From Fibrobacteria bacterium AD312 (GTDB lineage Bacteria > Fibrobacterota > Fibrobacteria > Fibrobacterales > Fibrobacteraceae), in NCBI GenBank assembly GCA_001462345.1, contig LIUM01000010.1, forward strand, positions 1 through 64,000: DNA of 64,000 nt, given 5' to 3'. The notes beneath the pieces are model-generated. The model ran no database searches and was not told where the DNA came from. It saw nothing but the letters and a program-made list of their open reading frames with translations. A program made the translations under genes and the position numbers. The number at the start of each line of letters is the position of its first letter. Position 1 is the stretch's first letter. Shown here in pieces: positions 37,996 to 44,336 of the stretch.

Positions 37996-40614
37996 TTGGC
38001 TGTAACAACTAAAAAACGCAAGTCGACAAAGAAGAAAGAAAATGGACAAAGTCTTTGGAGTATCATCACAGGATGGTCTCTTATATTTTTTGGCTCTCTT
38101 CTTTTACTATCGGCAATGACTGTCCGTTATTCAGGTGGTAATGAAAACTGGCTTGGCCCTTATCTTGGATCTTTATTTCCAGAAGCGATGACTTTTGTTT
38201 TTGGTCAAGTTTCAGTTCTTATTTTTGCTCTTGCCTCTATCGTTTGGGGCCTTTGGTTTGTCTTGAACATGAAGCATTTTCGTTTGTTTCGGCTCGCAGG
38301 TGGCGTTTTAGCTCTTTCTTTAACGACTTCTTTTTTGCTTTCTTTGCGTGTTTACGAAGTGATTCACCCTACAAAGTCTATTCTATTTGAAAACGGTGGG
38401 CTAGTGGGGAGCTTTTTTGCTCAAGATATAGCACGCCCTGTTTTTGGAAGTTCCCCTTTGGCTCCTCTCATGATAGGTCTATTTCTTTTAATTCTAATCG
38501 CTGTTTTTGCTTTTGGTTTGCGTTTCCGTCATTTTCATTTTTTGAAAGTCTTATGGGATAAACTAGTGCTTTGGTACAAAGTACGTCAAGAAAAAAAGAG
38601 GCTATTACAAGAGTCTAAAGAAGCAGAAGCGGAAAAAGAAGAAAAGGCTTTCTTATTAGATGACTTTACTATTGTGAAAACAGGCAAAGCAAAACCTTTC
38701 AAACCATCTGATTCTTGGTGCGATTCTTTTGTAAATACAACGAAAGCAGATGTTGCCAGTGAAACTAATCTTGATACAAAAGTGGATGACTTTGATGATA
38801 AAGAAGACGAAATTGCTAGAAAAGAACGTTACTTATTAGAAAATGAAGACCGTTTAGGGCTTCGAGAAAAACGTACGCTTCGAGATGAAATCGCTGAATT
38901 GCGTCGTATTCAGGAACAAAATAAATGGGAAGATATGCGTAGAGAGCGCCCTGCGATTGAGGGTTTTGTACGTCGTGAAATGGATTCTCGTCAAGATGAA
39001 AAAACGATTCCTATAAATCAAGAAAAACTGGATTTAGATGAAGAAACGATTGTTCCTACTTCTGAAGCGCGTGAGATAGAATTAGAGACTCTAAATGAAA
39101 CAGAACTATCGTCACAAAAGCCAGAAGAAGAGCCTACTATTTATGACGAATATAAAATTCCTGTGATTTCTGATATTTTACCTCCAACTCCAGATCAAAC
39201 CGCAGACTATTCAGAAGAAGAATTACAGCAAACGGCAGAAATGTTAGAGTTTCAGCTTGAAAACTTTAAGGTGAAAGGAAAGGTTGTTGGCATTTCTACT
39301 GGGCCTTTAGTAACACGTTTTGAAGTGGAACCTGGCCCAGGCGTAAAAGTCTCTCGTTTTTCTGCACTACAAGAAGATTTGGCTCTTGCCTTAAAAGCCA
39401 TGTCGATCCGCATTTTAGCTCCAATACCAGGGAAATCGGTCGTTGGAATAGAAATTCCGAATCGAAAAATGCATACGGTATACTCTCGAGATATTTTAGA
39501 AAGCCCTCTTTTTGCACCTAAGCCAGAAAAGATTCTGATTGTTCTTGGAAAAGATATTATGGGAAATCCATTCACTATGGATTTAGCAAAAGCTCCTCAT
39601 ATTTTGATTGCTGGGCAAACGGGTTCTGGAAAATCAGTTTGTATTAACGTTTTAATGGCAAGTCTTTTGTTTAGCAAAACACCAGATGAACTTCGCTTGA
39701 TTTTAGTGGATCCTAAAGTGGTGGAATTAAAATTATACGAAAAAATTCCTCACTTACTTCACCCTGTGATTACTCAACCAGAAGTCGCTGTTCAAGCCTT
39801 AAAGTGGGCTTGTATTGAAATGGACAGGCGATATGAAGTCTTAGCAAAAGCTCGTGTGCGTAATATTGCTGGTTTCAATGCAAAAGTTGACGCCAAGGAA
39901 CTTGATGAAGACTTCCCTGAAGATGAAAATAAGAGAATGCCATTTCTTGTCATTGTGATTGATGAATTAGCGGACTTGATGATGGTTGCAGGGAAAGAAG
40001 TAGAAACTTCTATTGCTCGTATTGCTCAAAAAGCGCGTGCTGTTGGTATTCACTTGGTCTTAGCGACTCAAAGGCCTTCTGTCAATGTCATCACGGGCTT
40101 AATTAAGGCGAATTTGCCAACGCGTATCAGCTTTAAGGTGGCTTCTCAGATTGATGCTCGTACTGTAATGGATAAAGCAGGTGCTGAAAAATTACTTGGT
40201 CGTGGAGATATGCTTTTCCGTGCGACAGAAGATCCTGAACCGCATCGTGTGCATGGTGCATTCCTTTCAGATGCAGAAGCGGAAAAATTAGCTGATGAAT
40301 GCTCTAATCAAAATGTGTATTACCCTCAAATAGAATCTTTTGATGTGGAATCTAATGAGGATGGAGAAGGCCCTCAAGATAACATGAAATTAGATAGCCG
40401 AATTGGCGAAGTCATTGCTTGGTGCATCAATGTAAAAGGCGTTTCTGTTTCTGCTGTACAGCGTTCTTTTAGCGTTGGATTTAGTCGAGCAGGGAAGCTT
40501 GTAGATCAGTTAGAATATCTAGGTGTTTGTGGTAAAAGTAAAGGAAATTCAAAGCCTAGAGATATTTTAATGACAGAAGAAGAACTATTAAATTTAATGA
40601 GAACGTTGCCATGA
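37996..40614 (+). CDS. ftsK: DNA translocase FtsK
   Basis: Membrane-anchored ATPase that pumps chromosome dimers or termini through the closing septum. Start codon is TTG with GGAG 7-8 nt upstream. Four membrane segments (about 20-180), an acidic and Glu-rich linker (about 195-400), and the motor: FtsK alpha/beta parts, Walker A GQTGSGKS (near 538), Walker B VIVIDELADL (near 652) and TQRPSVNVITG; a winged-helix gamma domain closes the protein (about 800-872), used to read polar guide sequences. The linker is shorter than in E. coli. ispE follows with a 4-base overlap. Confidence 0.95.
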   Translation: MAVTTKKRKSTKKKENGQSLWSIITGWSLIFFGSLLLLSAMTVRYSGGNENWLGPYLGSLFPEAMTFVFGQVSVLIFALASIVWGLWFVLNMKHFRLFRLAGGVLALSLTTSFLLSLRVYEVIHPTKSILFENGGLVGSFFAQDIARPVFGSSPLAPLMIGLFLLILIAVFAFGLRFRHFHFLKVLWDKLVLWYKVRQEKKRLLQESKEAEAEKEEKAFLLDDFTIVKTGKAKPFKPSDSWCDSFVNTTKADVASETNLDTKVDDFDDKEDEIARKERYLLENEDRLGLREKRTLRDEIAELRRIQEQNKWEDMRRERPAIEGFVRREMDSRQDEKTIPINQEKLDLDEETIVPTSEAREIELETLNETELSSQKPEEEPTIYDEYKIPVISDILPPTPDQTADYSEEELQQTAEMLEFQLENFKVKGKVVGISTGPLVTRFEVEPGPGVKVSRFSALQEDLALALKAMSIRILAPIPGKSVVGIEIPNRKMHTVYSRDILESPLFAPKPEKILIVLGKDIMGNPFTMDLAKAPHILIAGQTGSGKSVCINVLMASLLFSKTPDELRLILVDPKVVELKLYEKIPHLLHPVITQPEVAVQALKWACIEMDRRYEVLAKARVRNIAGFNAKVDAKELDEDFPEDENKRMPFLVIVIDELADLMMVAGKEVETSIARIAQKARAVGIHLVLATQRPSVNVITGLIKANLPTRISFKVASQIDARTVMDKAGAEKLLGRGDMLFRATEDPEPHRVHGAFLSDAEAEKLADECSNQNVYYPQIESFDVESNEDGEGPQDNMKLDSRIGEVIAWCINVKGVSVSAVQRSFSVGFSRAGKLVDQLEYLGVCGKSKGNSKPRDILMTEEELLNLMRTLP

Positions 40615-41459
40615 CCGATAAAGAATACGCTCCAGCGAAGATCAACTTATTTTTAGACATTTTACGTAAACGCCCCGATGGGTACCATGATTTAGGAACT
40701 GCTTTTCAAACCATTGACGCAGGGGATACATTAGAAGCATCACTTCGAAAAGATACTTCTATTACTCTTTCCTATAATGCAAAACAAGATTATCCTGTTG
40801 AGTCTGATTTAGTCTATAAGGCAGCTCATTTACTTCAAAGTACTTATGACGTAAAAATGGGTGTGGATTTATACCTTACTAAAACGATGCCTATTGGAGC
40901 TGGCCTTGGTGGTGGCAGTGCCGATGCGGCGGCTGCACTACGTCTTTTAAATCGGCTCTGGGGGCTTTCATTATCTGCAAAAGAACTTGAATCTTTAGGT
41001 CTGCATCTCGGTGCCGATGTTCCTTTTTTAGTGGAAGGTGGGCTTTCTTTTGCGGAAGGTATTGGTGAAAGATTAACACCTATGCCTCCTCTTACACTTT
41101 CTAATTCGCTTATTCTCTTAATTGCGACTCCTCAGTGTGCAGTACCAACTAAAGCCGCCTATGCAGGCGTAAAGCTTTCTGGAGAGGATCGTTGGAATCA
41201 ATGGAAAAGCAACTATGTTTCAACGGCAATACCAGAACTATACAATAAGTTTGAAGAATCTGTTTTACCTCAATTTCCATTGATTGCCGATATGAAAAAG
41301 GACTTTTTAGCCTATGGGGCTATCGCTTCATTGATGTCAGGCTCTGGGTCCTCTGTTTTTGGCTTTTTCGAAAACCGTCGAGAGGCCGATTTAGCCCTCT
41401 CCAAATTGGGAAACCGAGCTCGTTGGGCTGCAGTGACCACTTTTTTTGAAAAAAAGTGA
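40611..41459 (+). CDS. ispE: 4-diphosphocytidyl-2-C-methyl-D-erythritol kinase
   Basis: GHMP kinase of the methylerythritol phosphate route to isoprenoids, phosphorylating CDP-ME. AKINLFLDILRKRPDGYH at the N-terminus contains the substrate lysine, the ATP loop is PIGAGLGGGSADAAA (about 93-107) and the C-terminal MSGSGSSVFG motif closes the site. 282 residues, normal length. ATGA overlap with ftsK indicates translational coupling. tRNA-Gln follows about 60 bp later. Confidence 0.94.
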   Translation: MTDKEYAPAKINLFLDILRKRPDGYHDLGTAFQTIDAGDTLEASLRKDTSITLSYNAKQDYPVESDLVYKAAHLLQSTYDVKMGVDLYLTKTMPIGAGLGGGSADAAAALRLLNRLWGLSLSAKELESLGLHLGADVPFLVEGGLSFAEGIGERLTPMPPLTLSNSLILLIATPQCAVPTKAAYAGVKLSGEDRWNQWKSNYVSTAIPELYNKFEESVLPQFPLIADMKKDFLAYGAIASLMSGSGSSVFGFFENRREADLALSKLGNRARWAAVTTFFEKK

Positions 41460-41519
41460 AAAAAGCGTAGAAAATCCCTTTAAATTTATTTTGAATTCTA
41501 TTATCTTTGGGTCTCCCTA

Positions 41520-41591
41520 TGGGGTATCGTCAAGTGGTAAGACAACGGATTTTGATTCCGTTATTCGTTGGTTCGAATCCAGCTACCCCAA
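41520..41591 (+). tRNA. tRNA-Gln (anticodon TTG)
   Basis: 72 nt without encoded CCA. Acceptor stem TGGGGTA/TACCCCA is perfect; D arm GTCAAGTGGTAAGAC, anticodon stem ACGGA/TCCGT with loop TTTTGAT (anticodon TTG at 41552-41554), and T arm GTTGG-TTCGAAT-CCAGC are all standard and close to E. coli tRNA-Gln(UUG). Flanking bases pair further (CCTA at 41516-41519 with TAGG at 41592-41595) and eight Ts follow at 41597-41604, 13 nt before the rplY start. Confidence 0.97.
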
Positions 41592-41616
41592 TAGGCTTTT
41601 TTTTACTGGAGTTATT

Positions 41617-42195
41617 ATGGAATTCACTTCGCTCAAAACAACCTCGAGAGTATTAGGCGCAGGCCGCGAAACAAATCGCTTGCGCAAGTCCGGTCAGGTT
41701 CCGGCTGTCTATTATGGTAAGGGTCAGGAGCCAGTGCATCTTAGCGTTAGTGCTATTGATGTACGCAAGGTCCTAGCCCCTGGCAAGCGTTATACGCTTT
41801 TGGATCTTGAAATTGACGGTAAGTCAGGTAATCCTGCACTTGTTTATGTCTACCAAAAAGATTCCATTTCTCAAGAAATTACACACATTGACTTTTTAAG
41901 AATTGATGAAAATACATCAGTTCCTGTGCGTATTCCTGTGCGTATTTCTGGCATGCCTATTGGTGTTAAGTCAGAAGGTGGTATGCTTTCTCAAGAAAAC
42001 TACTATATTAAGTTATCAGCTCCTGTTGCTAAAATTCCTTCATCAATCGAAATCGATATTTCTGATTTCCATGCAGGAACAACATTCTATGCTGAAAATT
42101 TAAAATTAGAGGATGGAGTTTCTTTAGTTTCTAAACCTCGCACCGTGATTTTTGCGATTTCAAAAGCACGTGCAAAAGAAGCCGCTTCAAAATAA
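41617..42195 (+). CDS. rplY: Ribosomal protein bL25 (Ctc/TL5 form)
   Basis: Binds 5S rRNA in the 50S subunit. The 192 residues include the L25-like N-terminal domain (about 5-95; GRETNRLRKSGQVPAVYYGK, HIDFLRI) and the longer C-terminal Ctc/TL5 beta domain (about 100-190). The start is the ATG with GGAG 5-6 nt upstream; the open frame reaches back through the tRNA gene, which is not coding. It lies directly behind tRNA-Gln and in front of pth, a translation-related cluster. Confidence 0.93.
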   Translation: MEFTSLKTTSRVLGAGRETNRLRKSGQVPAVYYGKGQEPVHLSVSAIDVRKVLAPGKRYTLLDLEIDGKSGNPALVYVYQKDSISQEITHIDFLRIDENTSVPVRIPVRISGMPIGVKSEGGMLSQENYYIKLSAPVAKIPSSIEIDISDFHAGTTFYAENLKLEDGVSLVSKPRTVIFAISKARAKEAASK

Positions 42196-42220
42196 GCAAG
42201 GATTTTGAAGAATTTTGATG

Positions 42221-42244
42221 AAGGCTCGCCTTGCGGTGAGCCTT
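42221..42244 (+). terminator. Hairpin between rplY and pth
   Basis: AAGGCTCGCC / GGTGAGCCTT, a 10-bp stem (one G-U) with a TTGC loop. The sequence after it, CTCTTGT, is a poor T-run, so it may be a leaky terminator, an mRNA stabiliser or a processing site. Confidence 0.5.
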
Positions 42245-42266
42245 CTCTTGTATTAAGAGGATTTTG

Positions 42267-44336
<2,070 letters not shown>

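Follow-up and report, generated by a model that had tools for sequence, protein, structure and literature searches.

A tRNA-Gln gene as a possible leaky intrinsic terminator upstream of rplY in a family of Fibrobacterota

Introduction

On contig LIUM01000010.1 of Fibrobacteria bacterium AD312 (GCA_001462345.1; a 2.83-Mb genome in 50 contigs), a tRNA-Gln(UUG) gene lies directly upstream of rplY, the gene for ribosomal protein bL25, and a run of eight Ts stands between the two. The question raised by this locus is whether the tRNA is only a tRNA or whether, before it is processed, it also stops part of the transcription that would enter rplY. The stretch analysed here, called the window, comprises the first 64,000 nucleotides of the contig on the forward strand. 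A sequence-only reading of it had proposed that the unprocessed tRNA resembles an intrinsic terminator, that tRNA folding or processing could control readthrough into rplY and pth, and that bL25 might exert feedback on the locus.

Dicistronic operons of a tRNA and an mRNA are known from Escherichia coli (e.g., thrU-tyrU-glyT-thrT-tufB and metY-rimP-nusA-infB), where transcription from the tRNA promoter continues into a translation gene and tRNA processing releases the mRNA. The tRNA and mRNA of metY-nusA are separated by a terminator. The present locus differs in that there is no separate hairpin, and the tRNA acceptor helix together with pairs between leader and trailer would serve in its place. 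Sequence comparison leads us to favour, at slightly better than even chances, a tRNA-mRNA operon whose pre-tRNA is a leaky intrinsic terminator that sets the ratio of tRNA to rplY. If this is true, the gene of a mature RNA also serves to terminate its own operon, which would be a compact way of obtaining tRNA and mRNA in unequal amounts from a single promoter, and such terminators would be missed by finders that demand small loops. The individual parts are known; their combination, with the tRNA body as a terminator hairpin kept in several genera, we did not find in print. Within a literature search that lay outside most subscription journals, no title or abstract described a pre-tRNA that acts as an intrinsic terminator on its own transcript upstream of a protein gene.

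Organisation of the locus

The genes around the element are ordered ispE, tRNA-Gln(UUG), rplY and pth, all on the + strand. The upstream gene (40611-41459) is an open reading frame with GHMP kinase N and C domains, which we take from its sequence and gene order to be ispE (4-diphosphocytidyl-2-C-methyl-D-erythritol kinase). It is followed by a putative promoter of the tRNA-Gln-rplY unit at 41479-41507, made up of TTTAAA (41479-41484), 17 nt and TATCTT (41502-41507). The tRNA-Gln (anticodon ttg in the DNA) occupies 41520-41591, as identified by ARAGORN and by Rfam RF00005 with 64.8 bits; the 5' strand of its acceptor stem begins at T41520, and CCA is not encoded. Direct reading and folding place the two strands of an acceptor-helix extension on either side, CCTA at 41516-41519 and TAGG at 41592-41595. 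A single C (41596) separates TAGG from T8 (41597-41604), also read directly, which is the U-tract of the proposed terminator and belongs to a T-run kept in eight genera. The T-run ends 12 nt before the ATG of rplY (41617-42195), which has the Shine-Dalgarno sequence GGAG at 41608-41611 and encodes a two-domain bL25 of the CTC/TL5 type (PF01386 and PF14693). Further downstream, pth (42267-42827; PF01195) encodes peptidyl-tRNA hydrolase. A terminator-like hairpin of 11 bp with a weak U-tail (42220-42245) in the gap between rplY and pth may set pth apart from the unit.

With CCTA and TAGG, the acceptor helix reaches 11 bp, interrupted by a single bulge at the discriminator base A73 (A41591), and has a foot of two C-G pairs, followed by C and T8. 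Direct reading and ARAGORN confirmed every letter that had been described here earlier, namely the flanking CCTA and TAGG, the bulged A, and the C and eight Ts before rplY. The extended helix is part of the minimum-energy RNA fold, whose -28.2 kcal/mol (z -2.4 relative to 200 shuffles) comes mostly from the tRNA itself. Flank pairing in one sequence alone is weak evidence, because 14% of random leaders with the C-rich composition of the family match the pairing of the real leader with the window trailer. Runs of T8 or longer are not rare in the 64-kb window either (19 T runs and 16 A runs); among its 32 open reading frames with a Shine-Dalgarno start, rplY is the only one with a T8 located 12-30 nt upstream.

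In common with canonical Rho-independent terminators, the element combines a stable helix, G-C pairs at its foot and a following U-tract, here U8. It departs from them in that the helix closes a tRNA cloverleaf and not a small loop, and in that a protein gene begins 12 nt further on. A consensus terminator scan with loops of 3-8 does not pick up the element.

Conservation within the family

Of 111 compared genomes of the window's own family, 107 yielded rplY, and the upstream region was read in 102 of these 107 as 30 loci and 72 stretches (G091, G103, G111, G112 and G123 were left out). tRNA-Gln directly precedes rplY in all 102, in 101 by pattern and in one (L150) by eye, the latter sequence ending inside the tRNA with its 3' half and T-run visible. 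ARAGORN, applied to 30 of the 102 loci, failed on L017, where a stretch inside the tRNA is masked, and on L030 (G006), which has an altered anticodon arm. This altered arm may reflect a sequencing error or decay.

In eight genera (g1, g2, g3, g4, g6, g7, g9 and g10), 76 of 88 genomes carry a T-run of at least five no more than 14 nt from the tRNA, compared with 0 of 13 in g5 and g11, and at a threshold of at least four the counts are 87/88 versus 2/13. Pairing of leader and trailer beyond the acceptor stem reaches -4 kcal/mol or better in 83/88 versus 1/13. Within g2, 11 of 72 genomes are without a run of at least five, ten having four Ts and one having three. Pairing is weak despite long T-runs in g3 and g4 (both -1.6 kcal/mol) and in g6 (-0.3 kcal/mol), and an A-rich linker takes the place of the T-run in g5. 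In genera with a T-run, it starts mostly 0-3 nt past the last pair, with exceptions.

The paired bases vary by genus: CCTA/TAGG with a bulged A73 in g1, g7 and g9, CCT/AGG with a bulged trailer T in g10, and CAT/ATG without a bulge in g2; CCTA/TAGG over an A-A mismatch was seen by eye in L180. When leaders and trailers of ten representatives were exchanged, mean pairing fell from -3.8 for own combinations to -3.0 for exchanged ones (p about 0.01, a value that ignores kinship). The co-occurrence of pairing and T-run represents few independent events, because 72 of the 101 rows are g2 and the order of genera is unsettled. The rplY tree does not settle the basal branching, so the number of gains and losses cannot be told from it; an ispE tree, dominated by long branches and based on a pattern that had failed to match 13 of 32 rows, was discarded. 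Flank pairing and T-run occur together in most of the eight genera, and both are lacking in g5 and g11. A search for relatives with the tRNA elsewhere and no flank pairing gave a divided answer, in that no family locus read has the tRNA in another place, while pairing and T-run are missing from these two genera.

Comparison with other tRNA genes of the genome

tRNA-Gln(UUG) ranks first of the 44 tRNAs of its own genome both in T-run length (8; next 5) and in flank pairing (-4.4 kcal/mol). Our own scan assigned a separate hairpin-plus-T terminator to 31 of the 44, and in no case among these 31 does a run of T5 or more lie within 14 nt of the tRNA. The 13 others include three in tRNA clusters (Thr-tgt, Tyr and Val-tac), Ser-tga, which lies near the end of the stretch read and was left unclassified, and nine that run into protein genes. 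These junctions are Gln-ttg to rplY, Leu-tag to tig, Ser-gga to an rpoZ-like ORF, Thr-ggt to tuf and Trp to a secE-like ORF, by gene names that we presume to be correct, and Leu-taa, Leu-caa, Met and Gln-ctg, which lead into other ORFs. T5 or more occurs directly 3' of the tRNA in four of the nine, or five if tRNA-Met is read from the discriminator. A pattern scan of 38 genomes for tRNA ends followed by T7 was noisy, with T-loop-like matches inside genes, and was used solely to direct attention to the tRNA-Met, Gln-ctg and Leu junctions.

In all 30 loci read across the phylum, from among 34 genomes with a match, tRNA-Leu(UAG) lies directly 5' of tig, another old pair of tRNA and mRNA. The T-run at this junction is inconsistent among loci.

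Co-transcription and proposed mechanism

Of 101 family rows, 100 have a TANNNT element 9-14 nt upstream of the tRNA, and the gap from tRNA to ATG measures 11-40 nt (median 26). A window scan revealed no sigma-70-like site on the + strand between tRNA and rplY and no other terminator in this interval. Because the gap is so short, a separate rplY promoter with its leader does not fit into it; for the same reason, and because no such site was seen there, rplY would be reached through the tRNA, from the tRNA promoter or from ispE. The tRNA is on the same strand, directly upstream and conserved there, with no room for a promoter, as in a dicistronic operon, and tRNA-Gln is likely co-transcribed with rplY. 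The predicted leader of the pre-tRNA has only a few bases, nearly all of which fall within the helix extension.

We propose that one promoter just 5' of tRNA-Gln(UUG) drives tRNA and rplY as a single unit. The very short 5' leader would pair with the first bases of the trailer to prolong the acceptor stem, so that the nascent pre-tRNA replaces a terminator hairpin, and the U-tract would occupy the RNA-DNA hybrid as the foot of the helix exits the polymerase. This arrangement matches the geometry of an intrinsic terminator, because the acceptor helix can form only once its 3' strand leaves the polymerase, which is then on or past the T-run. The majority of transcripts would stop at the T-run and mature to tRNA-Gln. 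A minority would read through, and 3' processing after A73, by RNase Z or another nuclease, would release an mRNA for rplY, and perhaps pth, whose leader is short and whose Shine-Dalgarno sequence is open. Termination, if real, must leak, because full termination would presumably silence rplY. Such an element would fix a high tRNA to low mRNA ratio and sense no signal.

The chief rival to the leaky terminator, which we hold to be possible but rather unlikely, is that the T-run is a U-rich unstructured linker that keeps the Shine-Dalgarno sequence open, aids ribosome binding or lets in the nuclease that cuts the mRNA from the tRNA, with no termination and only incidental pairing. The A-rich linker of g5, the variable T-runs at the tRNA-Leu/tig junction and the three genera that combine T-runs with little pairing are all consistent with it, as is the start region of rplY, which once released folds weakly and into no unusually stable structure (z 0.7). 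Against it stand the presence of T8 upstream of only one of the 32 Shine-Dalgarno ORFs in the window, a T-run that starts at the helix foot, and the joint absence of T-run and pairing from g5 and g11. A U-rich untranslated leader could account for part of the U-tract signal.

Regulation and gene order beyond the family

In place of the fixed ratio set by a leaky terminator, the locus might be a regulated attenuator, in which readthrough into rplY and pth would be switched by folding, maturation or occupancy of the tRNA, with bL25, by way of a GlnRS-like fold, as a possible occupant. In a version of this, correct folding of the nascent tRNA-Gln would be the termination decision, and a misfolded or factor-bound pre-tRNA would let the polymerase into both genes. 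If true, this would tie the supply for 50S and 5S assembly to tRNA-Gln quality across a bacterial family, and we regard both the general form and this version as very unlikely. In favour of regulation are the linkage of tRNA-Gln and rplY (102/102 family loci and 33/34 elsewhere in the phylum), the presence of a GlnRS gene in the genome and the presumed resemblance of the bL25 fold to GlnRS. Against it, the two genera g5 and g11 retain the gene pair without the terminator, and no competing antiterminator was stable in folds of the longer transcript or the processed mRNA, the longer transcript overall folding no better than shuffles (z 0.1). An Rfam scan of 41300-42400 gave the tRNA alone above the cut-off, with no leader match at E up to 1 and no T-box riboswitch above the cut-off. 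Of the earlier proposal, the likeness of the unprocessed tRNA to a terminator gains from the co-occurrence of U-tract and flank pairing across genera and from the lack of another terminator or promoter in the interval; for the regulated readthrough, no competing antiterminator turned up in the folds made.

The review PMC10931766 reports autogenous control of rplY only where bL25 is short, with one domain, and the Shine-Dalgarno sequence is a weak GAGA, and describes no such features for two-domain bL25 with a good Shine-Dalgarno sequence. The present element resembles the L25 leader of E. coli and relatives described there in its position just upstream of rplY, and is unlike it in that no operator hairpin was seen before the Shine-Dalgarno sequence, which is GGAG, and in its two-domain bL25.

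Gene order also bears on this point. In other families of the phylum, tRNA-Gln(UUG) lies upstream of rplY in 33 of 34 loci (the exception being G052), a set that leaves aside G134, G143, G146, G042, G045, G046, G048-G050 and genomes without a match. A gammaproteobacterial sample was taken from the class of Paraferrimonas haliotis (G156) as the best-scoring 30 of 93 genomes with two-domain bL25. In these best 30, tRNA-Gln(UUG) is near rplY in 27; it lies in the first flank in 13, and of the remaining 17 another 14 have it further upstream. A prs-like frame, by a loose motif, is present in 28 of the 30 loci, and such a frame lies between tRNA-Gln and rplY there. Judged from these sequences, the tRNA-Gln/rplY neighbourhood is an old gene order, and in the gammaproteobacteria sampled the tRNA is not specifically attached to rplY. 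The adjacency of tRNA-Gln(UUG) to rplY, with or without prs, is a very old linkage, found in the phylum of the window as well as in gammaproteobacteria. Feedback by bL25 through its likeness to GlnRS was rejected as the main reading and is not supported, given the two-domain bL25, GGAG, the missing L25 leader in Rfam and an old gene order with an intervening prs-like frame.

That an AT-rich spacer has by chance acquired a T-run and four complementary bases is highly improbable and largely refuted by conservation, since eight genera carry the features with differing sequences and none of the other 43 tRNAs of the genome equals tRNA-Gln(UUG) in either respect, even if long T-runs are common in the window and 14% of random C-rich leaders pair equally well.

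Outside the family, the spacer between tRNA-Gln and rplY is longer or the paired T-run is absent. In some genomes of f9 and f12, a T-run directly follows an encoded CCA of tRNA-Gln. In the outside loci L238, L241 and L229, T-runs in this position come with no leader pairing visible by eye. Five outside loci scanned with Rfam (L187, L189, L190, L192 and L239) gave the tRNA alone above the cut-off. GC-rich hairpins without a T-run were seen by eye between tRNA-Gln and rplY in f3 and f8, and the GC-rich hairpins at this junction in L187, L189, L190, L192 and L195 are possible rplY leaders or processing signals.
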